NCBI GenBank assembly: GCA_038087015.1
Contig: JASBNA010000009.1
Location: 1,054,001-1,118,000, forward strand
Direction of reading: 5' to 3'
DNA: 64,000 nucleotides
DNA from: Cerrena zonata
Taxonomy: Eukaryota > Basidiomycota > Agaricomycetes > Polyporales > Cerrenaceae
In this document: one piece after another, positions 1 to 43,719 of the stretch
How positions within the stretch are numbered: the stretch's first letter is position 1
Layout of the letters: each line of letters begins with the position of its first letter
Notes under the pieces: model-generated
Database searches by the model: none
The model's input: the letters and a program-made list of their open reading frames with translations, nothing else
Told to the model about the DNA's origin: nothing
Position numbers and translations under genes: made by a program

Positions 1-254
1 AGAAATAATTTGCTACTATTATTTTTAAACTAAAAAAATGAAAATATTATAATAGCAAAGATGTGATAGAAATAATAAAATAATAAAAATTAAAAGTAAC
101 TATAATTTTTATCTTCTGTAATAAAGGCTAACTATAAATATATCTAGACAAAATACTTTCAAAAAAACTCTAGATTCAATATTACTTTTTTCTCCACTCT
201 TTAATACATTTATAATAGTAGATATAGTTTTAAAGATAAGGTTTATCTGAGTTT
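1..254. other. AT-rich 5' flank, no gene seen
   Basis: Very AT-rich sequence without a convincing reading frame or terminal repeat. It lies upstream of the recombinase/helicase gene and could be its promoter region or flanking DNA. The left end of the putative element was not found. Confidence 0.5.
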
Positions 255-261
255 GAACCTT

Positions 262-281
262 ATATAATAAAGTATATAAGA
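262..281 (+). promoter_or_regulatory. Candidate TATA region of the recombinase-helicase gene
   Basis: A TATATAATAAAGTATATAAG stretch lies about 80-100 bp before the first ATG at 360, a plausible distance for a fungal TATA box. It is followed by a pyrimidine-rich leader with repeated CATCATCA/CTC. AT-richness of the region makes chance matches likely. Confidence 0.3.
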
Positions 282-359
282 GTTAAATCTCCTTAAAATC
301 TATATTTATTTCTTAACTCTCTACCATCATCATCAACATCTCATACAATTTCAAATACA

Positions 360-3300
360 ATGTCTACAGTCTCATCTCTTTACAAATGCAGATACTGTTC
401 CAAACTTCTAGAAACAGCTAACCTTCAAAAAAGTCATGAACGAGTATGTAAACCTGCTGACACTATTACTATTAGTAATACAGTTATCACTTTAACTCGC
501 AACCAAAATCAAAAGTATCAATGTCAATGTGATAGTATTCAATGCAACACAGAATATGCAACAGTTGCTGCTCTCAAAAAATATCTCAAAAAACATAAAG
601 GCATTTGGATATCAGTATGTATTTTCCTAAAGTTGCTGCAGCAAGTTCTAATATAAGCTCTAGAATAACCCAACTAGTTCAAGTTCATCTGAAGAATCTG
701 AAGAAATTCCTTTGATACGTTCTAATATTTCAGTCAGTGCAGAAATATCTGATGACGAAGAAGAGGAGGAAGAGGAAGAAAGAGAAGAGGAATATGAAGA
801 AGAAGACAGCAAAGAAGATCATGATCCTGATGTTGCTGTGATTCAGGTATATTATTTCTTTCTTTCTAACCATATAATTTATTAATAACTATTTTATAGG
901 AACGATTAGAACGATTGCAGCAGCTGGATCAAGATCCTACCTCAAGGCCACATTCTTCACATAGCTCTGAGGTATATCTTAATATATTTATATCAGTTCC
1001 AAAGTTGATGCAGCAAATTATAGAAATCTTCCTCTAATGCTAGATCATCACCATCATTAGAATATGAAGATCCTCCTTTACCAGGAACAGTGAGACCTGT
1101 TATCAGTTCTGTATGTTTTCAAATGAAGAAATATACCAGACTTATACTGATAATTACTCATAGATTTCTTACAAAGATGATAGCTCTGATAGTGAAGATT
1201 TAGAAGCAACATTTGACTTTTCTGTAAGCTATTTTATTTTTATTGATATATTTTAATTTTAATGATGATATCTAGGATATCTATCGGCACCCTGATCTTG
1301 ACACATTCAACCTTATCATCAATACATCACTAGGATGTTTGTGTTGTGAACTTTGTCATATTGCATTGACTACAACACAAACTATCAAACATATGAGGCA
1401 ACAACACCCAAAACTACCTGCTTATCCCACTCTTCCTTTTCTCTGTGCACTCTCCAATATCTACTGCTATGATTCCTTTGCAGAGTTTTCAGATCACAAT
1501 CTGAATGCTTTTGGAGGATTATCTATTTATATTGGAGTAGAATGCCCAGCCTGTGACTACAAATGTCGAAGCAAGGAATCTATGAGAGTGCACCACCGCA
1601 CTGATCATCCAGAACATCCTGCTACTACCAATTGGTCATCATGTCATCTACAACAACTCAATCATAGCTCTCACAAACAATTCTTCAAAGTCATACTTCC
1701 TCAATCGACATCTAACCCTCAAATCAACATTGCCAAAATGTTCATTACACAAGCCAGACAGCAAGTCAAAACTGTTTATGCCAAGCTAGAGGCAGAAACT
1801 TCTGATGCTCGTCTTATTACACCTTGGCTTTTGTCAACCAAGTGGCATATCTTTACTGCTGGTTGTGACACCGAGGCTCTATGTGCAATGGTTGCCTTTC
1901 CCATACCATCTGAATATCCAGGCCTTGCTCATATTATCAAAGCATATTGCCAAAGTGCTCTTCAATTAATTGATAGCACTGATACTTTGACTCTTCAAAA
2001 ATTGCATACACCAGATCCAGATAAAACGTCAGTTATTTATTTAAAGTTGCTGCAACAAGTTATTAATTTTATCTTAGTGGCATTGTTAATGAACCATTCC
2101 ATAAGCTACAACAGGATAGTACTATTTCTCAATACCAAAGAGAGATAGTCATCCTTGTTGCTATGCTATTATGTTCTGATACTGCCTATCCACTCCATCT
2201 CAATGAGGATACAAAGAATGCTGTTGATACATTTCAAACTGCTCTCACACAAGAAGGAGCTGAAATCAACAAACAACTCAATGTCACAGGATCAGTTGAT
2301 ACAACCAGTATTGAAAACTTGCTGCATCAACTATTGGTTCAATGCTGGATGAATCGATGGACTCCTACTGCTACCAACACTACTCCATGTCCAACATTCA
2401 CTTGCATTATGCTTTGCAACTTGATAAAAGATGGTCGTTTTCAAGAGGCAAAACTTGTCACTCGAAAACTTGCAGCATTACAATATTGTATGCGCCTCAC
2501 TTTTTTGATCGAGATCAAAAAACGTGCTAGGGATCAAAACATACGTGATCTTCTGGCATGTAATCAGGTAGAACCATGGTTCATTGAAAAGGAAGACACC
2601 ACTCCTTTCAACATGATCCGCAGTTTACAACATCGTGCATCTGCTATTTCCTATAGTACTCCCAACGTAACCAACATTTGGTGGACTGATCGTGTCAATT
2701 TCCAATCTCTTGTATGGAGTGGCAATGAGATTCATTTGAGTCAGATAACATCTATGTTTCATAATATGGAAACAGAAATGATGAATATTTGGTCAAATGA
2801 TCTCTTACTTAATACCGATGCAAAAGTTGATATTGTGAGTATTTATATTATAAAAATTATCATAATAAATATACTAAATATCTATCTAGACTGGCCATAT
2901 CAGTGATGATCTAGATGATCACTCAGTGGGATATTCATTTCTCACTGATAGGCGTAATACTATGTTTAGAAAACAGGATCAACTACTCAAAGCTATCCTA
3001 GCCAATCCAGCAGCAAAAGCAAAGATAGTTGTTGCAACAACTTCTGGATATACCTGGCGCCGAGATGGTCTCTTCAAGTGGCTACAAGATTATGCTATAT
3101 TGCAAGGCTTAATATTTCTACGAGTTGAAATGTTAGGAGGTGCACCTGGACGTGGAAGTGAACTATTTTCAATGATGTATTGCAACATCATGACACGCAT
3201 TCGCAACCTATTCATTATCGGCACTTATATCTGTGTTCTTCGAAACTATCACAAGTCTGGTGCTAATAGTGGAGTTGACAAGTTAATTCCTCATGCATTA

Positions 3301-6165
3301 GATGCATTTACTGGAAACTTGTTAATTCAAAGCTTAGCATTGGCCCGACCTATGGCAGAGATTTTTGCAGAAATTCTCTTTCCCGATAATACCGAGGTCT
3401 CAAAGCTATATCAATCAAGACTTTTTGTCAAGATTAATAGGGCATTTACTACTGATGACCTTAGCAATCTTATGGCGGAAAAATCTCAAGCTAGCTTAGG
3501 ATTTCGGCTTACTGTCAACCCCTGGAGACATATCAATATTGCTTGGCGCCGGCAACTATGTGCAGCTGTAATGTTATTTCTTGATGAAAACAAGAATGTG
3601 GAAAATATTGGTGCTTTACAGTCTGGCCATTCAACATATGTTGAAAACTTTGTCTATGGACGTAGTGATGCATCACTTGCTGGCATACCAGAGAATCTTC
3701 TATATTGGTTCTTGATGGCAAGTGTTGAGTGGCATATTATTTGTCAAACAGTTCCTGGTAAGTATATTTTATTTATATTTATAAAACTATAAAATCTAAT
3801 TAGATTTATAGGTGGTATTATCTTGCCACATAACAAGGTTCATTGGAGTCATTATCAGGAGCTTGCTTCCAATGGCACTTTTCTGATTCCCAAGACTAAA
3901 CAAACTATCAACTCTGATGTTCAATCTGTGGCAACTACCGAACATATGGTAGCAGAAATAACCAAGCAACTTCTACCAGTTATAGAGACAAAGATTGAAA
4001 CTGCAATAGAAAATGCATTTCAAAAGTTTCTCCCTATGCTGCTAGCATCAAGACCTATCCCTCATTCCTTGCCAGAAGTTGCTGTAGCAACTTTATCTCC
4101 AGATATTACTATACCAACTCTACCACAAAGCCCAGACTTGCTGCAACAACACTCTCCTTTGATATCAATCAGACAAAGCAAAGCTATTGCTTTACCTGAT
4201 AAGTCTACATGGACTGAATATCATAGAACATCAAGAGAGACATCTGGCCCATCATACCCCGATACTTTGAGCCCTACTGCAACTCCATCCCATAATCTAT
4301 CATCAGGAATTCCCTATTTTTCAATTTCTACACCACAGTCTCCAGCTCTTCAGCTATTGGAGAACAAAGCACTTAGGAAAATAGGAAAACTCCTAAATCA
4401 TACAAGTCCTACATGGTCTTGTAATGAACAACGGCTCTCAGTGATGGAAATGCTTCGAAACAAAAATGACATGATTGTAATCCTTCGCACTGGATTAGGC
4501 AAATCTATGGTTATTTTTTTAGCAGCCATGATGCAAAAAGAAAAAATCACCATTGCAATCATTCCATTTACAGCACTTATGCTTGACTATCATCGCCGTT
4601 TAACAGATCTTTCAATTGGATTTGAAGAGTTCAAAGCTACATCACGTCATATTGCTGGAACACATAGCCTTATATTGGTCTCTGCAGATGTGGCTGCCCT
4701 TCCTATATGGTCTACAGCTTTACAAGAGCTCAGTCACAAACATGTTATTGGAAGAATCATATTTGATGAAGCACATGTTGTGTTTACATCTTCAGACTTC
4801 CGAGTCAGTCTTGCAAAGGTCTATCATTTGCGACAAATTCCATGCCAGATGATTTTATTATCAGGCACAGTACCACCTCAATCTGAGGATACACTGATTC
4901 AATCCTTTGCGCTTATATCACCAGTAATCATTTATCGTACCTCACCAAATCATCCTCACTTGCGCTATATTTTGGAACGATCATATCCTAATCAAGAACA
5001 GCTCTTTCAACGAACTCAAGAGTTATGGAATCAACATCGTATCAGCTTTACATCTCAGGATCGATGCCTTATATTTGTTCAAACATTATTCATTGGTCAA
5101 GCTCTCTCACAATTTCTACATTGCCCTTTCTATACTGGAGATCAAGATATTAGTAACAACGATGAACGAAAAACTACCTACCTTCAATGGATTGATGGTA
5201 CTCATCCATTAATGGTATGCACAAGTGCCTTTGGTACTGGCAATGATTACCCTCATGTCCGGCTATCACTTCATGTTGGAACACCAAAGGAAATGGTCGA
5301 TCATATTCAACAAACAGCACGAATAGGTCGTGATCTCAAGTTGGCTACTGCATATTTTCTTCCTAACTACCATGGTCAATTAACTCTTCCTCGACAATTA
5401 TCTACCCGGGATATTGATCACAAAGGCAAAATATCAATGCAGCAATTTCTGGTCAATGGCAATGCTGGTGGATGTCTCCGATTCGAGCTTACCAAGTTTT
5501 GCGATAACAAAGGAATACACTGCAATGATAGTCCAGAAAACGTCCTATGTAGCTCATGTGGAAAACACAAACAACAAGCTACTGCATTTCCTATCTCACC
5601 AATTCCACATGTCTCTGATACTACAACCCAAGGCATCAAACGCAAATTAGATACTGACAAGTTCAATGTTGCTGCAGCAACTTCAAAACAGCGTAAACGT
5701 GATTCTGATGCCAAAGCTAATCAGTTTATCGACACACTTTATGCTATATTGGAGATGTTTGTTACAATATGTCCACTGTGTCATATCAATGGTATTTATG
5801 GTGCACAACATGCAGTTTTGAATTGCCCATCATTTTCTAGGGCATATTTCTTTTGGAAAAAAGAGTTAAGATATACTTTCAAACGGACTGTTCCTATTTG
5901 TTTTTTTTGTCAAGTTCCACTGATAGATATGCTTCATCATGATCCATTATCTGCACAAGATTGCCCATATAGAGATATTGTTGGGCCTATGGTTTACAAC
6001 ATTTTCAACAGATATCAGAAAGAGTTGGAAGCACATTTTGGAATTTCTTGGTTAAATAGAAATGCTTTTTGTTTGTGGCTTGGACAAACATCTTCAGAGG
6101 AACATGTAACTAGATTGATTTCTGTTTTGTTTTTTTATTGGAACCAGTTTGTACAGACCAAGTAG
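360..6165 (+). CDS. Zinc-finger / OrsD-like / tyrosine-recombinase-like / RecQ helicase fusion protein
   Basis: Nine exons by my reading: 360-614, 664-846, 900-971, 1024-1110, 1164-1223, 1276-2027, 2078-2834, 2890-3757, 3812-6165. All introns are GT-AG, 49-55 nt, mostly phase 0, and give 1795 aa ending in TAG. Domains: an N-terminal CX2CX12HX3C finger (C10, C13, H26, C30); a Glu-rich acidic stretch (about 86-146); two OrsD-type (DUF3505) C2H2 fingers (C243/C246/H258/H263 and C309/C312/H325/H330). A tyrosine-recombinase-like core follows: RGSEL with R810, NPWRH with R935 and H936, GHS with H969, Y978. Then comes an SF2 helicase: Walker A GLGKS near 1242, DEAH at 1330-1333, SGT near 1362, QQTARIGRD at 1511-1519. 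A Cys-rich RecQ-C-like segment and a last CPLC...H...C module complete it. Helicases of this kind are known from basidiomycete genomes and resemble telomere-linked RecQ genes. The recombinase assignment is mine from motifs and spacing (H to Y is 9 residues, as in XerD). Exon borders are predictions; the gene looks intact. Confidence 0.8.
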
Positions 6166-8124
6166 TTATAGATTATAGTGTTGTTGCAACAAGTTTATAA
6201 AACATCGTGGGAAGATTATGTAATGGTACTATATATATAGATCTGATGATTTAAATAATAATTTAGTACAACTTGACCTCAAACCACTACCTTCCTCATT
6301 CAGTAAGAAATAAAACCAGCTCAAAAATCAAATATAAATAATGGCTGTTTGTTTTTTATTTTATTTTCTATTTTATTTTAATTTTTAACTTGATTTTAGT
6401 TCAATTCCAATCAGACTTCTAAAGTTGCTGCAGCAACTTCAGCTGTAATTAACTTATTATATTTTTCAAAGTTTAGATCTGTTCTAACATACTTTTAGTC
6501 TGTTTCTGTTTTTGCTGCTGCTTCCAACTCTGCAGCAACTCTATTTCCTCCTGCTGCTTCCACTTCTGCTTTCAAAGTTGCTGCAGCAACTTTAGATGTA
6601 AGTTATCTATTTGATTTTTGTTACTTTAACTTAGTCTGATATCTTTTTAGACTTCTGAAAGTAGTGGTATGTAATATTAAAACTGACCAGCATATGTTGA
6701 TTAATGTATATATTAGATAGTGGAAATTTGGTCCAAAAGGCTATACAGAAACAAATCAAGGTAAGTTAACTCTACTTATTAATTTTCTAGATTAATAATT
6801 TTATATTGCAGATTGCAAAGGATTTAGAGGCACAGGGAGTCCAACCCCTGTCATCTCCCAATGTTCATGTAAGTCTCAGATATGCTATAAAGATTCTATA
6901 TTTAACAATTACAATAATAGGACTCTGATGCTAGGGTTTGTTATTATAATAATTGAAATAAATTATGTATAGTTATAAATATTCTCTTTAATTATCTAGG
7001 ATAAGGAATATGTTGAAAGTGATATGGATGAATCAGATAGCACCGAGGTAAAGCTATAAATATATATTTAATTTTATAATACTTAATATTCATTTTTAGA
7101 TCATTTCTCTCAGTTCTGAGAAATCAGAACCAGCCAAGCCAGTTCGTAAATCCAAGGTGAGATCTTTATTACTTTTTAGCTTTATATAACTTAAATAATT
7201 TTATTAGGCAACAAAAACCAAGAAAAAAGTAATTTTTAAGTTTTATATTCTGAATTAGATATTAATTTTATTTGAATAGGCATTCAAATCTGTTGAATTC
7301 ATTGCCTCTGATGATGATGAACCTGAACCTACAAAGTTGAAAAAATCTGCCAAAGCAAAAGGCAAACAACCAGCTGCCAAGGTATTAGTTATTTAATTAT
7401 CTAAATCTAGAATTACTACTGATATATTTTGCTATTAGAAATCCAAGTCCAAAGCCAAGGTAAATTGAAAGTTGCTGCAACAACTTTTATTTTTTTGATT
7501 AAAAAATTAGAAATCCAAGGTGGATATATCAACGCTCATATTTTCACCCCCCTCCAATCTTGCTGTAATCCATGAACGTATCAACCAGAATCGAAAGTGG
7601 TGTTTGCTTCCTTTGCATCAAACAAATGCTGGTCCAAATAACACTGGACCTCCTATTGTGATTCAAACAACCAATCCTCGTCCAATCAACAAGGCCAACT
7701 GCGCTAAATTGTCTACAGATTTCCACAAACGAGGTGTCTTCAACTGTGTGGTTGAAAATGCAATATACATCATCTGTCCATTTTCAAAAATCAAGCCTGG
7801 TTGCTTATCAAGTGATCCTGCTATGGCTCAAGCTCTTCAATTTATTGAAGACACTGGCTCGATTACCATCATCATTATGAATGGACATCATCATGTTATA
7901 GCCATTCGCACCTTTTTACGTGGTCACATGGAAAGACTTCAAGATTTGTTTGATGACTTAGCCAAGTTGAAAACAAGCCATGCTTCAGATGCCATTGCAA
8001 AGTTTGCGGAGAAACAAGCTTCAGCCAATATAGTAAAGAAGTATGTTGAGGAAAAAGGACTTTGGCTATGCAGTGTCATTGATTCAGGTATAATATTATT
8101 TCACAAAGTTGCTGCAGCAAGTTT
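630..8124. repeat. Dispersed 16-20 bp palindrome family, consensus AAAGTTGCTGCAGCAACTTT
   Basis: Copies start near 630, 1002, 2044, 3027, 4076, 4136 (half-like), 5668, 6180, 6422, 6574 (perfect 20-nt palindrome), 7468 and 8105. Five lie in short introns (615-663, 972-1023, 2028-2077, 7460-7510, 8088-8144). Six lie in exons, where several read as Val-Ala-Ala-Ala-Thr, and one lies in the gap between the two genes. Because the same DNA word recurs whatever the coding status, it is more likely a DNA-level signal such as a recombinase, replication or silencing-protein site than a peptide motif. I saw no copies in the rest of the window. Confidence 0.85.
6166..6340 (+). promoter_or_regulatory. Intergenic region between the two element genes
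   Basis: Only 175 bp separate the TAG of the helicase gene from the ATG of the next gene. The gap holds one palindrome copy (GTTGTTGCAACAAGTT at 6180-6195), a TATATATAG stretch near 6231 and AT-rich sequence. It probably serves as terminator of the first gene and promoter of the second. Confidence 0.45.
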
Positions 8125-8814
8125 GCTAAATCTTATTTATTTAGAATGGCTTGCAACTATTCCTGAAAGCCGCAAACAGATTGAACAGCTCCTGGTTAAC
8201 AATGTGGATCAAGTTCACATGAAAGATTCCATTAGTAATCTCATCAATACTGGTGCCAATCTCTGTGCTACTGAGCCTACCAGCACACGTCTTGAAGTTG
8301 CTCACAAATACTTTGCAAGTCTTCCTGCAACTGCTGGTGGCACTCGAAGAATTGCCAACGATACCAACATGGTTCACCTTTGTCTTCAAATCTTCAAATA
8401 TCCATACACCCAATATTCTCCTATTGTCATTTACAGTCTCATCAGTAAATGGGAAAATACTGCATCTACTGTATGTGATCAATTTTAACCTCTCAGTTAG
8501 ATTAACCTATATATGTTTTCTAGTTTTACCGAGCTCTCCTTGATCCTTTGCTACAATCATATGAATTCTTATTCAATGGTTGGCCACTCTGGCCACTTGA
8601 TCAATGGTTTGATCATACCACTATTGAGCCTACTCCTGCCAAACGTCGCAGTTCTGGGAGACAGCTCACTGCATTGCTAATTGAAAATGAAGCCTTCCAT
8701 CAGCCTCGTGCTTTTACTTTGGAATTTGGCATAATTTTTGATCAAGCTTATGCCCAGTTATTGGCACCAGTCATTTCCTTGTGGGGCCTAGTTATAGAAT
8801 CCGGCAGACTATAG
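6341..8814 (+). CDS. Second gene of the recombinase-helicase element; possible ParB/sulfiredoxin-like domain protein
   Basis: I predict about 15 exons: 6341-6346, 6400-6444, 6499-6597, 6651-6666, 6717-6760, 6812-6868, 6921-6935, 7000-7047, 7100-7156, 7208-7228, 7280-7381, 7439-7459, 7511-8087, 8145-8470, 8524-8814. They sum to 1725 nt, 574 aa plus TAG, in one frame. The N-terminal third is low-complexity: Ala/Ser/Thr, then acidic SDxxE patches and KKSKSKAKK-like basic runs that could be nuclear localisation signals. The large exons encode a compact domain. Its RPINKANCAKLSTDF segment followed later by a MNGHHHVIAI segment resembles the ParB/sulfiredoxin pattern (Arg-Pro entry, then NGxHRxxA), with His replacing the usual Arg. 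The microexons and palindrome copies match the upstream gene, which suggests they belong to one element. Function unknown; the ParB-like idea is tentative. The C-terminus may have been cut by whatever lies after 8814. Confidence 0.6.
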
Positions 8815-9042
8815 GTATATTCCTGCGTCTTTTGTCATGGCATGGGAAAGTGATAGGTGGGATGGATAGAGGAAGGCTAGAGGACCCCAGAACCACTTGG
8901 TTGAGCATGAGAGACCCAGTACTTGTTGAGAAAGTTGAATACCAAGATGAGGTTTCGCGTCCATGTTCGCGTCCGAGATTAGGCAGTCGTGTCCAGAGGT
9001 TTTGGACACTTTCCCAGGGGTGTAGGATGTTGGCAAAGATGG
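8815..9042. other. Short unassigned spacer
   Basis: About 230 bp between the second element gene and the hairpin element. It has moderate GC and repeats such as CGCGTCC, but no convincing gene or terminal repeat. It may contain the lost right end of the recombinase-helicase element. Confidence 0.4.
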
Positions 9043-10099
9043 AAATAGAGAGAGGAACATCTAAGGTTTGCAGAACTATAATTTAAAGATAAGGTTTGTT
9101 TGCAAAAAAGGACATAATACGATATGTCATAGAGGGTAGTTTGTGTCAGACACGGCAATGTCAGAGTGTGTGCTAGAGTATGGTAGACGGGAAGAAATTA
9201 CCATATATGGCAAGAGGATATGAAAAGATAGGCAGAAGAGAGGAGATTCCAAATATAGTAAAATGGTATGCGTGGGAGAAAAATTGAGGTCGGAAATTAC
9301 AAAATACATTTTGAAACGCGACGAAAAAAATGAAAAGGCAAGTTTTGATTGGCTGGTCTTAGGTTAAGCACAGGTCTTAAGCTAAGAACAGTTCTTAAGT
9401 GAGCATAGGTGTTATAATAAGCACAGATTTTTGCTAAGCACAGATCTTAAGCACAGATCTTAAGCACAGATTTTTGCTAAGCACAGATCTTAAGCACAGA
9501 TCTTAAGCACAGATTTTTGCTAAGCACAGGTTTTAGATATAGATTTTAGCTAAGCACAGATCTTAAGCACAGAAAGCACAGATCTTAGTCAAGCATGGAA
9601 TTTAGCTAAAATCTGTGCTTAATATATGTGCTTAGCTAGAATCTATATCTAAAACCTGTGCTTAGCAAAAATCTGTGCTTAAGATCTGTGCTTAAGATCT
9701 GTGCTTAGCAAAAATCTGTGCTTATTATAACACCTATGCTCACTTAAGAACTGTTCTTAGCTTAAGACCTGTGCTTAACCTAAGACCAGCCAATCAAAAC
9801 TTGCCTTTTCATTTTTTTCGTCGCGTTTCAAAATGTATTTTGTAATTTCCGACCTCAATTTTTCTCCCACGCATACCATTTTACTATATTTGGAATCTCC
9901 TCTCTTCTGCCTATCTTTTCATATCCTCTTGCCATATATGGTAATTTCTTCCCGTCTACCATACTCTAGCACACACTCTGACATTGCCGTGTCTGACACA
10001 AACTACCCTCTATGACATATCGTATTATGTCCTTTTTTGCAAACAAACCTTATCTTTAAATTATAGTTCTGCAAACCTTAGATGTTCCTCTTCCTATTT
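9043..10099. mobile_element. 1.06-kb hairpin (foldback) element
   Basis: The two halves are near-perfect reverse complements around an axis at about 9571. The ends match as AGAGGAACATCTAAGG at about 9051 and its complement near 10092, with weaker matching out to the AAATAG stretches. Identical 60-codon frames on opposite strands in the two arms (9127-9309 minus, 9833-10015 plus) are a by-product, not genes. The inner parts carry repeated TAAGCACAGAT words. No clear target-site duplication was found. Confidence 0.85.
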
Positions 10100-10174
10100 A
10101 TAGTATTTGTCATTATGATATCATTTTAAAAGTCTCTTCAAAAAGCTAGTTCTAATCATATACTATATATCTCT

Positions 10175-10548
10175 CACTAGGCCAGAAACCAAATTCTAGG
10201 CCCAATAAAAAAGTGAAAAATCAGTCATAAAATGTAATGATTTTCAAGTAATAAAATTCAAAGTTCTGATAGATAAAATTCAAAGTTCTGATAGCATTCT
10301 GTAGATGCAAAAAATAAATCTAAAACTTTAACTTTTTATTACAAAAAAAATGTGTCTTCAGTAGTAATTTACAGTTTTAAGCTCTATATTCTATAAAGAT
10401 CTTATTTAATTTTTGTATTTACAAAATGCTATCAGAACTTTGAATGTTATTTTATTTTTTTGACTAGAAAGTCACTTGAAAATCATTACATTTCATGACT
10501 GATTTTTCACTTTTTTATTGGGCCTAGAATTTGGTTTCTGGCCCAGTG
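10175..10548. mobile_element. MITE family B, copy 1 (374 bp)
   Basis: Ends CACTAGGCCAGAAACC and its complement GGTTTCTGGCCCAGTG. The element is palindromic over much of its length and is flanked by the 3-bp duplication TCT (10172-10174 and 10549-10551). CACT[G/A] ends plus a 3-bp TSD fit a non-autonomous CACTA/CMC-type element. The class assignment is inference. Confidence 0.85.
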
Positions 10549-10619
10549 TCTATAATATACTGTCTTCAATTGGTCAATTAGACACTATCACTTAAATTAG
10601 ACACCCCCCTAGAATATGT

Positions 10620-11107
10620 CACTGGGTATAATACCGAATTTTATAGCATAAAAAAGCAAGGAAAGATTTTAGAAAAAGTCCCGGCTTTTTTACTAGACTT
10701 TGCACTCTAAAAAATCAAAAAAGATTCAGAATAGTTGTAAAATCTTCTAGAGTTAAAAAAGATAAAAAGATTCACAATCTTTGGTCTCATAAAAACTTCT
10801 ATCGCTTAATCTACAGGCCTATTGACCTACTTACTAGTTGACTTCTAGCTATATTAGACTGTTAGTAAGTAAGTTGACAAGTTAACAAGTTGATTTATAG
10901 GCTAATAGACTGGTTTGTTTAGTGATAGAGAATTTTATGAGACCAGAAATTCAGACTTCTTTCATCTTCTTTAGCTGCAGAAGATTTTACAACTATTCTG
11001 AATCTTTTTTGATTTTCTAGAGTGCAAAGTCTAGTAAAAAAGCTGGGACTTTTTCTAAAATCTTTCCTTGGTCTTTTAATATATAAAATTCGGTATTATA
11101 CCCAGTG
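10620..11107. mobile_element. MITE family D (488 bp)
   Basis: Ends CACTGGGTATAATACCG and its complement CGGTATTATACCCAGTG, with long inverted arms. The flanks do not match (TGT on the left, CAC on the right). Gypsy integrase coding sequence starts exactly at the right border, so this copy marks a deletion or rearrangement breakpoint. Confidence 0.8.
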
Positions 11108-12262: not shown

Positions 12263-12636
12263 CACTGGGCTGGAAACCTAATTTTAGGCCCAATAAAAAG
12301 GTAAAAAATCAGTCATAAAATGTAATGATTTTTAAGCAACTTTTTCTGTCAAAAAATGAAATAAAACTGAAAGTTCTTAGAACATTTTGTGAAAACAAGA
12401 ATTCAATAAAAAATTGAGAAAATATGAAGCATAAAACTGTGAATTCCCACTCACAACACAGTTTTTCTATCCTAAAAACTTAAAGTTTTATATTTATTTT
12501 TTGAATGCACAAAATGTTGTAAGAACTTTGAATTTTATTTTATTTTGTTGACTGGAAAGTTGCTTGAAAATCATTACATTTTATGACTGATTTTCCACCT
12601 TTTTATTGAGCCTAGAATCTGGTTTCTGGCCCAGTG
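12263..12636. mobile_element. MITE family B, copy 2 (374 bp), at a copia deletion junction
   Basis: Ends CACTGGGCTGGAAACC and GGTTTCTGGCCCAGTG. The flanking triplets differ (TGT and CTT), and the copia coding sequence on the two sides is not contiguous: protease on the right, post-integrase pol on the left. This suggests recombination between two MITEs with loss of the interval. Confidence 0.85.
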
Positions 12637-13291
12637 CTTTTCGGAGATGACGGTCAGAATCATTTCATGTGGCATGAGGATCTTGCAGCCGGTCTTCTCG
12701 AAATGAGCAGGGAAGCCTCCTTTCACCATCTGGCTGACCGAAACGAGGGTGATAGGCATCGTTGGGGCATGAAGCACATTCTTCAAGATAAATTTGACCT
12801 CCTTCCTATTGTAGGTGGTACTAACCTTGACATCTCCTTCACCTGTAGCATTAAAAATGCCTCCATCAGCAGAGTGGATGGGTTTTGGAGGAATAAGGTG
12901 GTACGAGGTGAAGTTTTCACGGCAGGGATCAAAGTGATGACTTGCGCCTGAATCAATAATGCGAGTACAGTTCGGGCAAGCTAATTTCTGACTTGCCACT
13001 AGCGAAAAGTCAGTAGCAATGTGGAACGCAAAATCTTTGCTATCGTTAGTTGTTATAGCAGCATTGGCACTTGTACCTCCTCCCTTTCCCTTTCCTTTCC
13101 CCTTCTTCTGATGTCTAGGGCCTTGCCCTTCCTTTCCACCACCCTTGCTCCAACAATCTTCCTTCCCATGCCCAGTCTTACCGCAATTTGAGCATGTCAG
13201 CTTTGACAGTTTCACGGCCAGAGCAGAATCTCCAGGAGTGTTTGAACTGATTGCACTGTCGTCGCGGGCAATGGCGTGGAGGTGCATGAGG
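12637..13291 (-). pseudogene. Ty1/copia gag C-terminus and protease
   Basis: The minus-strand frame encodes a zinc knuckle CSNCGKTGHGKEDC (CX2CX4HX4C), a Gly/Lys-rich linker, and an aspartic protease with the active-site stretch IIDSGASHHF, ending at the MITE at 12636. Its N-terminal end at 13291 is the Gypsy-1 insertion point. The missing first part of gag lies at 30065-31050. With one copy of the TGAGG duplication removed, the frame runs through from AETLLM into HLHAIARDD, so the two pieces were once one gene. Confidence 0.9.
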
Positions 13292-13603
13292 TGTAAAGTC
13301 TGCTTCCAGGCTTTAAAGGTAGGCGATATGCACTCAGCTGTATCCGACAGAGATTCGGAATAGAACTCCTATGAAATGACGGAGATCTGACTATAGTTAG
13401 GTTGTCGAGGTCCTAGCGAGGACATGACAGCGCAGAGAAGGTGGTAGGTTATATTCAAGAAGTTCTAACTACCCTAATAGGAAGGAGTGACTATCTAGGG
13501 TCAGGAATAGAAAGTATAGAGAGGGCGTTTAAAGTCCATCATAGCGAGTGAATAAAGGATTTCGAGTACTACCATTTCCGTATCTACCAAAGGGTCCGTA
13601 ACA
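13292..13603 (-). repeat. Gypsy-1 3' LTR (312 bp)
   Basis: Plus-strand ends TGTAAAGTCTG and GGGTCCGTAACA. It matches 29768-30064 except for ATG/ACG and TAG/TGG single-base differences and 15 extra bases near 13575-13590 between two CTACC words. In element orientation it is the downstream LTR. Confidence 0.93.
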
Positions 13604-15698
13604 CTGCCCCCCAGTACAAGATTAAGCCTTTCAGTGTGTGAGTGTGGGAGACGCGAGTTGTGTAGCATGCGAGCTAAGGCTCTCCAATACCGCTCTCTGA
13701 GGAGTTCATCGACATGGTCCAGACCTCTCAGGTCGTCATAGGAAGGGTAAGGTGAATTGTTGCTGACCCAAATTCGTCGAAGAGAGTCGCGGACTCTAGC
13801 CCATTCTATAGGACGTGTTTCGATATCTGCTTCTAGTATGCTCAGGTGACGACGGTACAGTAGCAGCTCTACATCGTTTCGAAAATGGAAGGTGTTGAGG
13901 CACCACTCTTCTCAAATCCATTGCTCCTTAGTAAAGGAGAGAAGACCGATGGAGCTTAGACTTTCATTGGAAGGGATGGGATACCGGTGAAGCAGTTTCC
14001 TCAGGCGTTTACCAGGAGAGAGACGGCTCTTCCAACTCTCACCCGATAGAAAAGCCTTCTGAGCCGATCCTAGATGGGCTAGCAACTGGAGGTTCACGCT
14101 CTTTGAATTGAGCCAGAGTAGCTTACGAGCAAAGTGGGAGTCGGTATCCCCCTCGAAGAGGGTAGAAGGGGGAACAGCATAGTGGTGTGGGTTTGAGCAT
14201 AGAAGAAGGGGTCCGACGTCGGTCTCCCACTCACGTCTCACCGGCACGTCCTCGAGGTCGTTCTCCATCAGGTACTCGATGTAGTAATCTGCTTCGACTG
14301 TAGAATAGATGTCCATGGTGGTGAGAAGGGATTTGCCACTGCTGAGAGTGACGAGATGAGGTAGCTCCATGTTGACCTGGTAGTCTCCGGGTCTCCTGGT
14401 CACGTTGAAAATAGTAGGTCCCTCTGGTTCGATTGGGGCAGCCTCATCGACTAGCATGGGAGAGGGGGTCCAAATACAATCGGCTAGAGGAGCCGGGTCT
14501 TCCCCTGCAAGTGGTGGAGCTTCACTCTCCGGTTGGATGGAAGCACCGGAGAAGGAAGATCTCCTGCTGGAGTAGGGGGACAAATTGTTCCTCTTGCGTT
14601 CAGAGGAGGGATCATGTTGAGGGGAGATAGACTGGCGCGGAGGCGAAAAGGAGTGATGTCGATAAGAAGTATGGGGGCGTCCACGGTGGCTGGCATGTTC
14701 CCTCGAGTAGTGACGAGAGCAGTAGTGGAAGCGGCGCTGCTGGTTTCGGTGCCGACTGCTCCTCTCCCCTTGGGATCGTACTGAGGAGCTAGATGATGCT
14801 CTATAGTGGCGGTGGGAGTATCTTTCTCGCGAGCGGTTCTACCTGGAGTGACGTCGGTATGGAGATAAGGAGGGAAGTCTGTCCCTGCCACGTCAATCAT
14901 TGTATCTTCCTCGGATCGTGCGAGGAGGAGGCTGACCTCCTCTCTGCAGTCGAGAGTAGTAGGAGTCACACCGTGGCATGGGAGCCCGGGGTTTGTAGAT
15001 AGAACGAGCAGGAAGGAGTGACGGTGATCTAGTAAGAGTAATTGAGGAGAGAAAAGGCGGGGGGAGAGGTAAAGAGCATCAAGGGTAGAGGGCAAATTCG
15101 GGCGCTACGATGCGGCGGTGTCCGGCACTTGCCGAAGTTCCGTAATAGGAAAGTCAATAGATTTCCTCTGGAGATTGAACCGCGATTGGGGCCTTCAGTC
15201 AGAGAAGGTGGAAGATATCTGATCGTCGCTGGAATGGTTATAAGCGTAGGTGTGCAGAAAGGGAGGCACGTCTGGAAGTGCACTGCCCGATACCCAGTAA
15301 GTGCAGAATTGTCTCCTATACTCCTGGCTTTTGGTGGGGACTACACTGCTTGGTCTGAAGCGGTGGCACAGGTGGTAGTGTAGTCTTCGGTACCAAGGAA
15401 GATCCGTAGCAGCCGGTCGAGCTACTAGGAATCGAGTGGTGACGCTACATATGAACTGTAAGCTGTCGTCTAACACTTGGAATGCAACAGGTTCGAGCTC
15501 GAAAATATGGCAACAGGAATCGAAGCTGTGGTATCTCTGGATGGTCACCCAGCCTACACCAAACAGTTTCACTTTACGACCAACTTTGCACACCCTGGAC
15601 GAGGTAAGCTCTGATTGTAGGACCAATAGATACTGATAATTAGGGTCTATTCCCACCACAGATGCCGAAGGGTCGTCGACAGGGAGTGACGGGTTCAT
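13604..15698 (-). pseudogene. Gypsy-1 accessory 3' open reading frame(s), RS-rich
   Basis: About 2.3 kb lie between the pol stop (TAA at 15893) and the 3' LTR, unusually long for a gypsy element. A frame from ATG 15698 runs about 167 codons (MNPSLPVDDPSASVVG...). Another frame, read from about 15000, first encodes an Arg/Ser/His-rich stretch (SRHRNQQRRFHYCSRHY) and then a compact acidic/hydrophobic part from 14583 on. That frame passes one TGA at 13909-13911 and stays open to the LTR. The pieces are broken by TGA, one TAG and a frame change. I do not recognise the family; it could be an RNA- or nucleic-acid-binding accessory protein. Confidence 0.5.
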
Positions 15699-16249
15699 GG
15701 AGTCAAGAGAGAGTGGGGAGTTGATGTTGAGAGTCGAGTCGTTAAGTAAAGGAGTGGACGGGTCTTGGTTGCGTTGATCGCATCAAGTTGAGTCTGTCTA
15801 GACTGCAGGCCATATGGGATTAAGCGAGGTCGCAAAGGAGTAGCTGATTAAATAGATCATAATATCAAAGAAAATGCACAAGGAAAGGGGAGTTATAGAG
15901 ATACTGGTACATCAGGATGGGATTTGACGTAATCCCTTAAGATTCTGGGAGCATTCTGCAAGTCTAAAGGAGTCTGCCACGTATCATCCTCCGGCCCATA
16001 TCCTTTCCATCTGACCAGGAATTCTATACGGTTCCACCTAGACTTATTCCTTCTCCAGGTGACAATATCCTCTACTTCGTATTCTTCCGAGGCGAGGAGC
16101 TCAGACTGGCGGGGATCTGGTACGAGAGGACGGGTTATTCCTGGGTAAGCCTCAGCGGGAGCCTCTCTGTATGGACGTAGGTGCTCAATGTTGATGGTTG
16201 GATTCATGAGATATGTATCGGGAATGTGTAAACGGTATACATTATCATT

Positions 16250-16964
16250 CACTGGATCGTGGCCCGAATTTTAGGCTTCATAAAAGTAAGGTCAAATTTT
16301 ATAAAAAGTCTCTTACAAAATATGATTTTAAGCACCTAAAAATTGTCAAAAAATGCAGAATTTCAGCAAAATTTGATGAATCATAAAATCCTTGGCTAAT
16401 TCAGACTTTTGTATCTAATTTTTAGACTTTAGAAATATTGAATTTTTGTTTATTTTTTATTGGAGAAAAGTTTACTATGCAAAATTCAAACTTTTGATAT
16501 ACTTTTATTTCTCTAGAAATTATAATATAATTGTATATATCAAAATAAAGTATTATAAATAGAGAGCCTAGAGAGAAGATATAGACTACTATTGTTGGTA
16601 AATCATAGTCTCTGTCAATTATACTATCTGATAGAGATATTTAAGTATGCAATATCACTGACCTTTCCAAATTAGCAGTTTAAATTTTATATTACTTTTG
16701 GAGAATCAAAAGTGTATCAAAATTTTGAATTTTGCAAAGTGAATTTTTCTCTAATAAGAAATATATGAAAATTCAATATTTTTAAAGTCTACAAATTGAA
16801 TACAAAAGTCTGAATTTACATAGGCTTTTATGATTCATCGAATTCTACTGCAATTTAGCATTTTCTGACAATTTTATAATGCTAAAAACTATATTTTGTA
16901 AGAGAATTTTTATAAAACTTTACCTGACTTTTATGAAGTCTCAAATTTGGGCTATGATCCAGTG
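16250..16964. mobile_element. MITE family A, copy 1 (715 bp), in Gypsy-1 pol
   Basis: Ends CACTGGATCGTGGCCCG and its imperfect complement GGGCTATGATCCAGTG, palindromic arms, flanked by ATT (16247-16249 and 16965-16967). On the minus strand it splits the linker between integrase and chromodomain. Removal with one TSD copy joins VVQECIN to DNVYRLHIP in frame, confirming borders and a 3-bp TSD. Confidence 0.93.
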
Positions 16965-19900
16965 ATTGATGCACTCTTGCACCACGAAAGGGCCTATTCT
17001 CCTTTGCATCAATTTCTTTCCCATTCCCTTGACGTTGACTAGTTCAAGAGAATGAGGGTTCACTAGAACTCAGCTTCCCGGTTCCAGTATCCTTGGCTTC
17101 TTCCCTTTGTTGTAGTGCTTGGCCATTTGGGCCCTAGCATGAGCCATGGCGTCTCTAGCTCTGCATCGGTGGAGCTCCAGGTCTAGTACAAAGTCCGTGG
17201 CTGATTCTGAAGTAAGTACCGGCCTTTGGAGGTACCGATCCTTCCCATTCGCAAAGTCCCAGGACCCTCGGGGTTCCATACCATAGAGGAGATAGTAGGG
17301 TGAGTACCCTGTCACTGAGTGACTCGAAGAGTTATAAGAATGAGCTAGAGGCTTGAGATAGTGTGACCAGCTAGATCGGTCGTGACTGACGTAAGCACGT
17401 AACATAATTTCTAAAGACTGGTTGGTACGTTCAGTTTGTCCGTCGTGCTGAGGGTGGTGACTGGAGGATAAGGCTAGGTGAATCTTCAATTCTCGAGTGA
17501 CAGTTTTCCAGAATTCGGAGGTTCAGCGAGGGTCTCGATCGGCTATGATGTGTTCCGGCAAACCGAAGTTGAACACTATGTAGTCAATGAAAAGTCGAGC
17601 AAACCCTCTTGCATCTAGAGATCCTTTACAGGGTATGAATTGGGCATGTTTGGTGCATCGGTCCACAGTCACAAGTATTGCATTGAACCCATCGCTCTTC
17701 GGAAGGCCGATGATGAGATTCAAGGATACCCATTCATAAGGGCAAGTGGGCACCGGGTTTGGGTGTAGCAGTCCTGATGCATTTTGTCTCGAAGGTTTGG
17801 ACTTCTGGCAAACGTCGCAAGTTTGGGCGTATTCCCTGGCATCTTCTCTTAGCGTTGGCCAATACATCTGACTGTTGATCCTTATGGCTAGTTTCACTGG
17901 ACCTTCATGAGCTGCCTCGTATGGCGAGTTATGAATTTGACTCAGAATAGTCGGTACCATGGCGCGAGGGACACATAGACGAGCTGGCTCGTTGTTGACT
18001 CATAGAAACAGCAGCCCCTCGGAGTTCTTGTAGAAGCATTGCTCATTGTACTGGGGAACTTCTGTCTCCGGAGCCTTCTTCCACTTTGGCCTGAAGAAGG
18101 GGTCTTCCTGATATCCTTTATTGAACTTTTGTGCCATCTCGTTACTCATACTGATTAGTAGTTTTGAATATGTGTGTGATAGCTCGGGGTCTGTCATGAA
18201 GGCGTCATCGATCATGGTTGCATTCTCGTTGTTATTCCCGTCTTGGGTCCCCTTGTCTCCTGCCGTAGTCGGCTCGCTCTTTCCCTGAACTTCTTGCTGC
18301 TTCTTGCTGCTTCTCGTCTCTACCGCTCCCCCAGTTCGGGAAAGGGGGGAAGACGCTTGGATGATTTCTTCCCAAGGAAAGGTGGCTGTTGCTAAAGCCG
18401 CTGTGGCTCGTAGAGCTGGCTGGTTGGCTGCTGCCTCTTCTGCGGCCGTCATCGCATCAGAGTCTGGGATGATGGCTGGTATATCATCCCTTATCGGAGA
18501 GATGTGTTCCAGCGGGGCTCGTGGAAGTCGTGATAATGGGTCCATGTTGGAGTGAACGCGCCCAGCCCTGTGTATGATGTCCAAGTTTGGTCAAAAAGCA
18601 GCGAAGATGGCCCCCCATCCCGCGAGACGTTTGTTTGCGTTTTTGTAGGTACGAGCCCACTGTAGAGCGGCGTGATCTGTTATCAGTATCGTCTTTTCTC
18701 CTTCAATGAATGGCTGAAATTGAACTAGTCCTTCTTTCGCTGCTAAGGCCTCCCTCTTGGTTGCTGAATAATTCCATTCTGCTGATTTGCAAGTCCTGCT
18801 CCAGTACGCTATGACTCGTTCGACGTACACCATAGTCTGTTTGAACTCCGTCGCCCACGCACTCGGCTCTGGTATGTCCTGTATGAACGAGGTAGTCTTC
18901 GACACCAGTGACGGAAGATCAGCTCCGGCGGCGGCATGTGCTTTCTCAAGTCGAGAGTACGCTTTGGTGTCTCGCAGGTCTCGTATTTCGATCGGCTGAA
19001 CTTGTTGTAGACAACATCCCAAGGCGACATTGGAGGCATTGGTATAGAGGCGGTAAGGCTTACCCACTATTGGGTGTCCTAGTATCGGGGCTGACTGAAG
19101 GGCAATTTTTGCTTGTTGCCAAGTGTATTCGCACTCGGGGGACCATTCCCATTCGACATCTTTTCGTAGTAGGCGAAAGAGAGGGGAGACGATGAATGAA
19201 TAGTAAGGAATATAAGAGGAAAAGTAGACCGTCATCCCTAGGAAGGTCTGTAGTTTGGAAATCTTGGAGGGACGTGCTAAATCTGCTACTGCCTTGACCT
19301 TTTCTTCGTGCATTGATAGCCCTAGCCGGGAGACCTTCTGTCCTAGTAGTAGGATTGATGAATAACCAAAATGGCATTTGGTAGAAGATAGGGTAATCCC
19401 TGAGCGTTCTATCACTCCCAATACCTTGTCGAGGTGTTCCATGTGCTCACTCCATGACTTAGAGTATATGATGATGTCATCGATATAAACTAGGGTGAAA
19501 AGCCAAAGGTAGGGAGCGAGCACTTTCTGCATGAGTCTTTGGAAAGTGGCGGGGCCGTTGGTTAGACCGAAAGGGAGTTGACGAAACTGGAATAGGCCTC
19601 GATGTGATCTGAAGGCAGTCTTCTCTTTGTCGCCGTCAGCGACGGTAATCTGTGTAAACCTGGACAGAGCGTCCAGGGAGGAGAGGACTTGCGCTCCTGA
19701 TAGCGCTTGTAGAATTTCCGATTGCCGAGGAATGGGGAATTCGTCCCTAATGGTGACACTGTTCAGTTTACGATAATCGATGCAGAACCGTGGTTTGCCA
19801 TTACGGTAAGCTATTACTACGGGAGCTGCCCAAGGGCTGTCTGTCAGTTCGATGACTTCTTGAGCAAGCCAAGTGTCCGTTTGCTTGTCTATTATTTCCC

Positions 19901-22900
19901 TTTTCGCCGGCAAGGCTGCATACATAGGTACCGAGATTGGCTTCTGGCCGTCGTTCACCTTAATCTCGAAGAGTAGATCGGAGTTATGCCCAAGGTGGCC
20001 GTCGAATCCAAAAGCGGCCTGCCGCTTGTATAGGAGTTCAACCAGCTTCTTACGTTGCTCTGCTGGCCACTCTGGTCCTATGTCCAGGATCGACTCGAGT
20101 TGTGCTGAAGGATAGACCTCGGGGTCTACCGTCTCTGCCATTTTGGGACCAAAGAAAATTTCCTCCTCTTCTTCTACGAGGGGTTTGGCATCTTCACCAG
20201 GTGTCAGCTGTTTGAGTTGTTCTTGCAGTAAGGCTTTGACTGCAGCGGCGTGCTTGGTCAGAGCGGGAGACGTGTCATTGAAGTATTTGTGAGGTAAGTG
20301 ACACTCCGCTAGAGCCTCGCCTTTCCTCAGAATGCGGGGACGTGTGGAAGGGTTAGTCACTGGAATTTGGTGCACTTGAGAAGTGAGGAGGCTTGGGGTG
20401 GTTATCAGATATGACCCGTCGGGCTGGCCGAGAATAGTCTTCTCGACATACCATTGCTCCTGTAGGCCACCCAGTTTACCTATAGGTACGTTCTTGCAGG
20501 TGTGAGGAGGAATGATAGTGTCCGAAGCCACTTGAGCAATCGTTCTCGCTCCATTTTTCCGCAGTCTTTGCTTACGGTGCTTGTTCCGTCGATGGGATAG
20601 CGCTCGTATAAAACTGGAGTCCGCTCCTCGGCCAAAGACTCTGAATTGCGATGAATATTCCTCACTTGATGATGAAGCTGGTAGGGTAAATCCTGTCTTA
20701 CCCAGATGAATGGAAGAGCCTTCCTTGGTGTCCCTGTTAACGCAGAATTCGTAGTTGACTTGGGTGTCTTCCCCGAGTAGTAAGGGAGAAGTCATCCCTG
20801 GAACTACGTAGCATTTGGAGGTCATGTGGATCCAAGGACCCTCGCTCGACTTAACGAACAAGGGAAGGTGTACATAGCCGGAAATCTCGAAACCATTGGT
20901 GAGTTGATAGAGTTTCATCTTAAGTCCCTGCTTAACTATCGGACGTTCCGCTACTGGCAGCGAGAAGAGAAATTCTTCTGATACCAAGGAGATGTCAGCT
21001 CCCGAATCTATCCTGGTTTTCATCAGGGGAGCATGCCTACGGGCTACTGCAGCATTAATGGATAGAGCGGCGACCCCGATTGTGGATCTACCTTCTGTGT
21101 GTTTCCTTACTGGCGATAGCGTGATCACCTGAGGTAGGGGCTCCTCTTGCTCGAGAGGTGGATAGATATCTTCTACTCAGTGAGTCTCAGATTTCGTAGT
21201 TTTGGCGGAAGCACTATATACGTAGTGGTCGAACTTGACATCTTGTCCCACTCTTTCAGCTTTTCAGTAGATCGAATTGATCGCGTCTTCAAAAGGAGGT
21301 GAGACTGACTGGTCAGCTTCGTCGATCTCTATCCCCTCTGCATTAGTCCTGCGTAAGAGGACGGGATCCTCCGGGTTCAAAGATGGGAGAGGGGAGGACC
21401 AGTGTGCGTCCTCTGCGTCTTCGCAAGAAGGTTGTCTGGCGTCTATGTACGTGGCTCTCAGGATCTTAGCTTCCGCTTGTAGGGCTTTCGCCCATTCGTA
21501 CGTACGACTAGCTTGTTCGACATTATCTAATACAAGGACGCAATAGGCTTCAGAGTACTTAATCTCCTCAACGTCACTAGCAGGAATGTCATGAGACACG
21601 TCTATTTGATTCACGGATCGTTTAACCTCCCACTCTTTCCATCTTGCACAGTCTCTGTCATAATGGTACGGGCTACCGCATACCTTACAAGGGCGAGACG
21701 GTTTGTTTCTGCTGACAACGGAATCGTCTCTGGGGAATTTCGGTCCGTTGGGGGGTCTCCTTGGGGAGGGTTGCTTCCTGTCTTGCGATGCTGTGAATGC
21801 GGAAGATACTAGCAAATTCCCATTGAGAGTCGAAGCGGGGTTTTCGTTCATCATAGAGCGGTCACTTTCTGAAAGAATCGTCGATGGTTCCCCTTCACCT
21901 GAGTAAGCTCTTCTGGAGACTTTTGGGACTAGACTGGCATCTCGATGTGAGTATCTTGAATCCGACAGTTTCGCTAGATTGATCAACTCCTTGGACTTCC
22001 GATTCATGTCGTTAACGAATCCCGTAATGGTGATGTCAGGATCGTCTAAGTGGAGGAGCATGCTCCAACTCGACGGAGCCTTCAGCATGACCACTTCTAT
22101 CTCCTCCATAGGGTCTTGTAAGGAAGTAACAACATGCCGGTGCAGGATAATTCGGCGGTATACGAACTCGTAAGGTGTCTCATGTTCATGCCCTCGCTGA
22201 CGATATTCCTGGGAATCGTACTTATTCTGTAATTCCACCCGGAAAGCTGGTGTGAAGAAGTGGTCTTTGATTCCTTCAAGAAAATGCCACCAGCTTTGCA
22301 TCAGCTTCCTTTGTAGGTCGACACTGATCAGGGTCCACCACTGCTTCGCTCGACCTGAGAGACGTAAGTAGGCGCAAGCACCAAGATCTCTGTTCATTGA
22401 GGGACTCATCCGAGCAAGGCAGGACATTTCGTGTATATATCCTAACATAGTATCATCAGAGCCATCCCAGGTGGTCAGTTTAGACTGAGGAAACTTCAAG
22501 TCAATATACATTTCGTCTCTAGTCCTAGAAGGCTTCCTTTCTAGGTCAGAATTCGGTGTTAGGAGAGAGTCCGCCCGTGTGGGAGGTTCCTTTCGGTGCA
22601 AAGGCAAATCTTCCGGTGGTCATCGCGGATTCCTATCCTTTGGTCGCTTGCTCGAAGAGGACGATGCGGAATCGTGGCTTGAAGGTGGCCCTCCACCGGA
22701 GGCTCTGGTCTTTCATGTCGATGGATCGGGGTTTCCTTGAGGCTTAGTTGAAGGAACGGGGGAATTCTGATGATGGGGAGGCGAGCTTTTTGGTAAGTCC
22801 CATTGCCCTAGTTTGAGGTTGCTAGGAGATAATGAGGACGGTTCCTGGGAGCGGGGAGCATTAGGTTGGCGTGATGCTTTCCAGCTTGAAGTTTGTCGGG

Positions 22901-23586
22901 AAGGGTAAGTGGCTGTTATCACTTCGTTCGCAGCTTCCGTCAGGGGAATGGCCGCGGTGCCTGTGGCTGGTCTGTAGATGGCTTTCGCCTTTCCTTTAGC
23001 TGTAACGGAGGTATTGCGCGTAGGTTCCGCGGCTGACAGGGCAGGCAGCTCGAACAAGGGGTTGCGGTAGCTAGTCCGTGCAAGGTTCGAACCAATCGCG
23101 TCGTTCTCGTTGGGGCTGACTACCTCTATAGTGGGTAGGCCATCTCTCGGTCGGACCTCGTCGCTGGTTGAATTTCGATTAGCAGATGGTTCTTTATCTA
23201 CTAACTCTTCCACTTCCTCATCTGATTCTTCATCTAATCCCTCTACTAGTCCTTTGAATAGTCGGTCGATGCGGCTGAAAGATTCTTGCGTGAGAGGCAA
23301 GAGCCTGGACGTAGCATTTGACGGGGGCACCGTGAAGCTAAGGGCCCGTTCGGTGACACACCCATGGGCCCATGGGGATGGGGCAGGAGTAGCCGTCCTG
23401 CCATTTATGGTAGGTCGCGGTCTGAACAGCGAATCCACCCCATCACCACCTGTTCGGATGGCACAGTGGGGTGATTGCGCATGTCACGATTTCGCACTGG
23501 CCACATCGCGTCCTCTTTCTTTGTGTTCTACCTCTGTACTATTCTCAATATTACTCCTTCCTCTATTCTGCTATCTTCTGTCTTCT

Positions 23587-43680: not shown

Positions 43681-43719
43681 GTAGTTTCGTACTCCTACTT
43701 CTGGGATACTCACTGTTTT

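Follow-up and report, generated by a model that had tools for sequence, protein, structure and literature searches.

A candidate tyrosine recombinase fused to a RecQ helicase in a subtelomeric element of the mushroom Cerrena zonata

How does a RecQ-type helicase gene come to lie near several chromosome ends of a mushroom genome, and could the gene itself encode the enzyme that brings it there? This question is raised by a gene in a 64,000-bp stretch of the Cerrena zonata genome (assembly GCA_038087015.1, contig JASBNA010000009.1, positions 1,054,001 to 1,118,000), hereafter the window; its contig is named C9 below and other contigs likewise. The gene joins OrsD-like fingers, a candidate tyrosine recombinase (YR) core and a RecQ helicase, and is carried by a mobile element of the subtelomeres, at least 12.3 kb long and here called the A element. 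The interpretation presented here, to which we give an even chance of being right, is that the product is a tyrosine recombinase fused to a RecQ helicase that exchanges chromosome ends at C^T (the caret marks the join). It is built on the conservation of the YR catalytic residues, the predicted fold, the copies of the element, their termini, the C^T preference, the polarity of the copies and their telomere caps.

Window positions 360-6165 were spliced by hand; removal of eight GT-AG introns of 49-55 bp each leaves a single open frame of 1795 amino acids, which reproduces the splicing, the frame and every residue number named in a preliminary description of this DNA. The parts of the gene are the following.

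360..6165, plus strand: recombinase-helicase fusion gene, 1795 amino acids, nine exons, with OrsD, putative tyrosine recombinase and RecQ helicase parts.
360-614, 664-846, 900-971, 1024-1110, 1164-1223, 1276-2027, 2078-2834, 2890-3757 and 3812-6165, plus strand: exons 1 to 9.
1276..2027, plus strand: exon of the OrsD (PF12013) fingers, by Pfam.
2890..3757, plus strand: exon of the candidate tyrosine-recombinase catalytic core (residues 723-1011), by conservation, AlphaFold model and structural matches.
3151, 3253 and 3517, plus strand: putative catalytic codons of R810, K844 and N932.
3526, 3628 and 3655, plus strand: putative catalytic codons of R935, H969 and Y978.
3812..6165, plus strand: exon of the RecQ helicase with a Cys-rich C-terminal region, by Pfam DEAD and Helicase_C and by family profile.

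The protein contains R810, N932-P-W-R935-H936, G968-H969, Y978, a GLGKS motif (Walker A) at 1239 and a DEAH motif at 1330. Pfam matches to OrsD (E 5.2e-6), DEAD (E 4.8e-14) and Helicase_C (E 1.2e-7) bear out the fingers and the superfamily 2 (SF2)/RecQ helicase proposed earlier. Indeed, the SF2 core is recognised by Pfam, and the family profile best matches BLM (5e-54), RECQL5, RECQL1 and WRN. A protein search with residues 560-1010 gave 35 homologues, many of which also have OrsD and helicase domains; a separate protein search with the telomere-linked class of helicases gave three proteins. All species-named homologues are from mushrooms (Pisolithus, Boletus, Suillus, Termitomyces, Mycena, Amanita, Schizophyllum, Coprinellus and others), genera that we take to belong to the class Agaricomycetes. 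An alignment search returned 36 proteins, namely P0032 itself, seven further homologues (P0039-P0045, one of them with just 24% identity to the query's first row) and 28 proteins excluded unread, for which low query coverage and other helicase domains indicated similarity to the helicase part only. With 35 and seven homologues, the fusion is therefore a conserved architecture and not the accident of a single gene model.

The catalytic residues of tyrosine recombinases are R, K, R, H/W and Y. In an alignment of 47 sequences, R810 is an arginine in 45/45 non-gap rows, E813 is equally constant (45/45), and K844, a conserved hairpin lysine absent from the list of residues first proposed, is invariant (47/47); R935, H936, H969 and Y978 are kept in 44/46, 44/46, 45/47 and 46/46 rows, respectively, so that the R-R-H-Y set of the preliminary description is wholly or nearly invariant. 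When columns filled in fewer than 30 of the 47 rows are skipped, R810, E813, K844 and Y978 are the only 100% conserved columns between residues 735 and 1012. The set R, K, (H), R, H/W, Y occurs in order, and the first His (position 932) alone is not kept: it is Asn in the window protein, as had been noticed, and varies among the homologues (N 21, S 11, Q 6, R 6, I 1, A 1, one gap). The GH-x8-Y spacing is that of Xer recombinases. Judged from this alignment, the motifs of the middle exon are not due to chance.

An AlphaFold model of the window core (predicted local distance difference test, pLDDT, 82.5; predicted template-modelling score, pTM, 0.83) was compared with solved structures, and 29 of the 30 PDB entries listed were YRs, type IB topoisomerases or a protelomerase; the remaining one was YopR, presumably a phage repressor with a YR-like fold. 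In a second model, of a diverged protein of the telomere-linked class, residues 1-370 match YRs and topoisomerases, and residues 516-643 match RecQ helicases, with DDX3 in one further row. In both lists the top Xer and Cre entries stand above the top topoisomerase entries; a viral fold library gave weak matches only, several of them to integrases. In profile comparisons that were not significant, the best local alignments with XerD pair XerD R148 with R810, and the version with five rows also pairs the hairpin lysine with K844. Structure prediction, proposed earlier as a check, found a YR/topoisomerase-IB-type core with Xer and Cre as the closest solved folds, and the assignment of the middle domain to this type of core is supported at the level of predicted structure.

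The gene had also been suspected to lie within a large DNA element, which near-identical copies, a sharp left end and known intact sites now confirm. Its features in the window are listed here.

1..8788, plus strand: body of the A element, with the left terminus C^TATGTTTCTTATCCCCCG 266 bp left of the window (C9:1053735) and the right part missing after 8788.
7511..8488, plus strand: open frame of a second gene, to which Pfam assigns no family at its cut-off; in the copies on C20 and C3 the region of this gene extends further.
630..8123, no strand: eleven palindromes resembling AAGTTGCTGCAGCAACTT (3 mismatches or fewer), of which three lie in introns, four in exons and four downstream of the gene; they start at 630, 1002, 2044, 2316, 3026, 4076, 5666, 6422, 6575, 7469 and 8106.
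8789..10099, plus strand: R repeat, which contains a large palindrome and whose own left end TAGTTATAGAATCCGG is joined after GGGGCC (the C20 copy has the intact site GGGGCC^TTCAGG).

The exact left end of the element is C^TATGTTTCTTATCCCCCGTAGTGAGGG, also written C^TATGTTTCTTATCC. The window copy is 99.3-99.5% identical to those on C3, C129 and C20, with which it shares the sharp left end, while the left flanks differ. On the right, the window copy is cut at 8789 by the start of the R repeat, the C3 and C129 copies stop at C3:2616476 and C129:35687, each at the left end of another element, and the C20 copy runs for 12,307 bp up to a new left terminus of the same type. The right limit thus differs among all the copies followed, and in none of them was a right end seen beyond which the target resumes; the remainder of the window does not contain the distal part of the element. 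The YR exon is open in the window and C3 copies.

The terminus has 34 matches in a search of the genome, and 22 of them begin at its first base (TATGTTTC in 20 places, TATATTTC in two). The base before it is C in 22/22 and the two bases CC in 13/22, with 20 different flanks; the terminus is found joined within DNA of unrelated kinds, among them an A-class gene (C111) and a C-class telomere-linked helicase gene (C36). Over three terminus types, the intact target is known for 15 of 27 junctions (e.g. TTACACC^TTGG, TCTGCC^TACTGG and GGGGCC^TTCAGG), with C before the join in 15/15 and T after it in 12/15, and only a few bases are shared between junctions and target. The other twelve junctions were not counted: for eight there was no match, C20:14261 has a repeat flank, the alignment stops before the join for C93:98828 and for one R-type junction on C26, and one R-type junction on C3 matched only itself. 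Empty sites, whose search had been recommended, are thus known for left junctions only. Regarding orientation, 18 of the 19 strong termini point toward the nearest contig end, weak termini being excluded (C26:518190, C80:108547 and C80:93334, 73-74%, sharing one left flank); strong and weak termini together give 20/22.

A unit of about 1.9 kb with the A terminus is found at five chromosome ends (C20, C35, C111, C18 and C11), each time with a different left flank. The units run into TTAGGG repeats at nearly the same place, the repeats starting within about 30 bp of one another in 4/5; the C20 unit is about 23 bp shorter, and C11 has about 45 extra bp before the repeats. On C111, C18 and C35, where the target is known, unit and telomere stand in place of the sequence that follows the target elsewhere. 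An inner copy of the unit on C93 ends with TTAGGGTTA, after which other DNA follows. The C20 unit has no open frame longer than 107 residues. The palindrome AAGTTGCTGCAGCAACTT is common to the element and the telomere units: 14 palindromes are present in the 12,307-bp C20 copy (at most 3 mismatches), against a mean of 0.0 in 20 first-order Markov resamples, and 5-7 (at most 4 mismatches) in each of the five units. None was found in window positions 8790-64000 or in five B and C loci tested.

The genome comprises 55.5 Mb, and the search with the window core gave, besides near-identical A copies, a B family (43%, three places), a degraded copy on C32 (34%) and a C family (25-27%, ten places). 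Eight of the ten C-family places are less than 10 kb from a contig end. RecQ-type genes lie beside telomeres in two copies: the C141 C-class copy is about 3.5 kb from a contig end of TTAGGG repeats, and on C20 CCCTAA repeats form the contig end 1.95 kb beyond the A copy. For the window copy the distance to the contig end is 82 kb, and the contig starts of C38, C50, C88 and C129 are not telomere repeats. The C family, deposited as a helicase-domain protein (P0036; OrsD E 2.8e-14), retains R, E, K, R, H and Y with the GH-x8-Y spacing. The link to telomere-linked helicases that had been suggested is consequently real in this genome, where a C-class homologue with the same YR residues lies near contig ends. 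The three copies of the B family, on C65 and C62, are 99.7-99.98% identical over 12-13 kb.

Movement of the element could be explained as follows. The recombinase would cleave the left terminus at C^TA and the target at C^T and swap strands there, so that the terminus and everything distal to it, including the telomere, would be joined to a new chromosome arm, by exchange or replacement of ends. Opening of the DNA would be the task of the helicase, and the palindrome AAGTTGCTGCAGCAACTT may be a binding site recognised by the OrsD fingers or by the product of the second gene. Telomere-linked helicases in general could then be the recombinases of such end elements. Given a single short site on each of two linear DNAs, a YR could exchange all the DNA distal to it. 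Such a one-site exchange predicts a sharp left end, no right end, telomere polarity, a short identity at C^T and disappearance of the former distal part from that arm, and because these features are expected from it, end exchange by a YR-helicase is preferred over the other explanations. A broader and more doubtful proposal, less likely than not, is that the telomere-linked helicases, at least those of mushrooms, form a separate class of mobile-element recombinases that swap entire chromosome ends at short C^T sites, the mobile unit being a telomere-capped arm end, with autonomous elements that carry the gene and 1.9-kb palindrome-bearing caps that are carried along. With a conserved recombinase core, the place and spread of subtelomeric RecQ helicases would gain an explanation that is direct and testable; the fusion would extend the known ways of DNA movement in eukaryotes, and if ends are exchanged site-specifically, the turnover of fungal subtelomeres would have a dedicated enzyme.

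Several results weigh against end exchange by a YR-helicase. No strand exchange was observed, and we infer the role of the recombinase in movement. Concerning the junctions, three A-type intact sites have A or C, not T, after the join; at C35:2047 the preceding C is present only in the closest relative; the exceptional strong terminus is on C129, a 51-kb contig, and aims at the end with a telomere-linked helicase; and of the three weak termini, two aim at the nearest contig end and C80:93334 aims away. The reciprocal product was not found: among the matches listed, C20 alone has the final 1 kb of the element. No left end of the C class and no ends of the B class were found, three copies being alike over nearly all of the 16.5 kb read for C and of the 12-13 kb read for B; the sole B break, on the right side, is not at a C^T site. 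The YR exon is disturbed in two of four copies (two stops in C129, two out-of-frame pieces in C20). As for the protein, almost every row has N, S, Q or R in place of the HxxR His, the window model is of low confidence around H969 and Y978, and Foldseek's own scores are weak (best XerH, E 0.088). Up to E 10 the middle exon matched no Pfam family, hence no YR model, and in 34 members (E up to 0.05) Pfam found 13 families, none a recombinase; the Pfam scan of A1 up to E 1 comprised the best 25 of 40 families. The comparison with phage-integrase-type profiles, proposed earlier as a check, was not significant: hhalign against XerD, FimB, FimE, lambda Int and Cre gave probabilities below 1%, as for four E. 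coli control proteins, in a weak test in which the YR side consisted of single sequences or a five-row alignment. A PDB sequence search with an alignment of the members without a precomputed helicase domain gave no YR and three weak zinc-finger matches.

Among the other explanations, a true YR could integrate as a Crypton-like circle, the distal target being lost later by telomere erosion or arm exchange. Cryptons have been proposed to move as YR-driven circles with short direct repeats at their ends (PMC3212892), and on C20 the element is directly followed by another copy of the same terminus; however, no right end with resumed target was found, the right limit is different in each element copy followed, and units reach the telomere on five chromosome ends, so that circle integration seems improbable, if well worth keeping in view.

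It is similarly improbable, though again to be taken seriously, that the protein is a true YR and the joins come from host repair, by microhomology-mediated or break-induced copying, with the terminus as an old subtelomeric repeat border. Fungal chromosome ends do rearrange, and the identity between junction and target is limited to a few bases. Host repair is however difficult to reconcile with a join at the same nucleotide in 22/22 places with 20 flanks and with a C^T preference common to three unrelated termini.

The fold would also suit a type IB topoisomerase coupled to a RecQ helicase, an enzyme of the host or of the element which would relax or dissolve DNA at chromosome ends instead of swapping strands; this is very unlikely, as Xer and Cre rank above topoisomerases in both structural lists, the GH-x8-Y spacing is that of Xer and the gene lies in a dispersed element. 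Lastly, the motifs and the fold could be a coincidence, with the middle domain belonging to the structure of the helicase; this would suit the missing Pfam YR model and the non-significant hhalign result, and is hardly credible given that the invariant columns are the YR catalytic ones and that two diverged models have YR-type folds.

Other repeats of the window and the genome were also recorded. The R repeat family is present on C26, C3, C20, C32 and C9 and is joined after CC or TC in 5/6 junctions, the C3 junction having AT; the window copy contains a palindrome of roughly 1 kb. A third terminus, T (TAACACTATTACCGGTCC), is located at C3:2616477, C129:35686 and C93:108166, after C in the 3/3 junctions seen and with C^T in the intact sites; the order on C3 is T-like sequence, A element, T terminus. 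Hairpins of the termini were considered as single-strand recombination sites, and this candidate was rejected (8-bp arms in A, 9-bp arms in T, none of note in R); their z-scores (A -0.87, T -2.45, R +0.75, short unit +1.19) were not used as evidence. Lying about 15 nt (A) and 17 nt (T) inside the termini, the hairpins recall such sites, that of A being not significant. Two further genes or gene parts lie downstream of the recombinase gene; four open frames scanned had no Pfam family at its cut-off, and no reverse transcriptase appeared in the Pfam scans of the element. The second gene has a stretch, NGHHHVIAI (NGHHRVIAI in C20), which to our eye recalls ParB-like domains, for which the hidden Markov models gave no support. 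Self-complementary repeats of about 375-730 bp (10158-10552, 10620-11107, 12263-12636 and 16244-16970) are perhaps palindromic miniature inverted-repeat transposable elements or foldback units. In addition, two regions were judged by eye to be retroelement- or transposase-like (12574-28698 and 43525-47718), with the following frames.

12574-13368, minus strand: copia-like gag frame.
18591-21176, minus strand: gypsy-like reverse transcriptase frame.
24674-25456, minus strand: transposase-like frame.
45955-47718, plus strand: gypsy-like reverse transcriptase frame.

With respect to known systems, Xer and Cre are the closest solved folds and have the same catalytic residues, whereas the window protein has no significant sequence similarity to them and its HxxR His is replaced. 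Cryptons are likewise eukaryotic DNA elements with a tyrosine recombinase; they differ in that the gene described here has a RecQ helicase and OrsD fingers, no GCR1_C match (none up to E 10 in four window open frames) and no two-ended insertion seen. Starships, which are large elements of fungi, have a tyrosine recombinase close to one of their ends, whereas here there is no DUF3435 match by Pfam, the helicase is fused and the copies are polarised toward chromosome ends. Beyond the different architecture already pointed out in the preliminary description, the element differs from Cryptons and Starships in that no right end with resumed target was seen and in that its copies are aimed at chromosome ends. 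The telomere-linked (subtelomeric RecQ) helicases of fungi share the RecQ core and the subtelomeric location and are described as helicases; among the titles and abstract openings listed in a search of the open-licence literature, none associates them with a tyrosine recombinase, and no paper searched contains both terms, which is no proof of novelty. They have been reported since 1998, their function being unsettled, and a study of Agaricus suggests perhaps a role other than telomere maintenance (both PMC7473861). In another report, a Metarhizium gene annotated with OrsD is the same as a deposited recQ helicase gene (PMC11457142), so the same architecture may occur in Ascomycota. MoTeR, FoTeR and HeT-A form chains of units at chromosome ends with truncated copies, as here, but are retroelements. 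FoTeRs co-occur with telomere-linked helicases in chromosome-end chains with truncated copies (PMC12857005).

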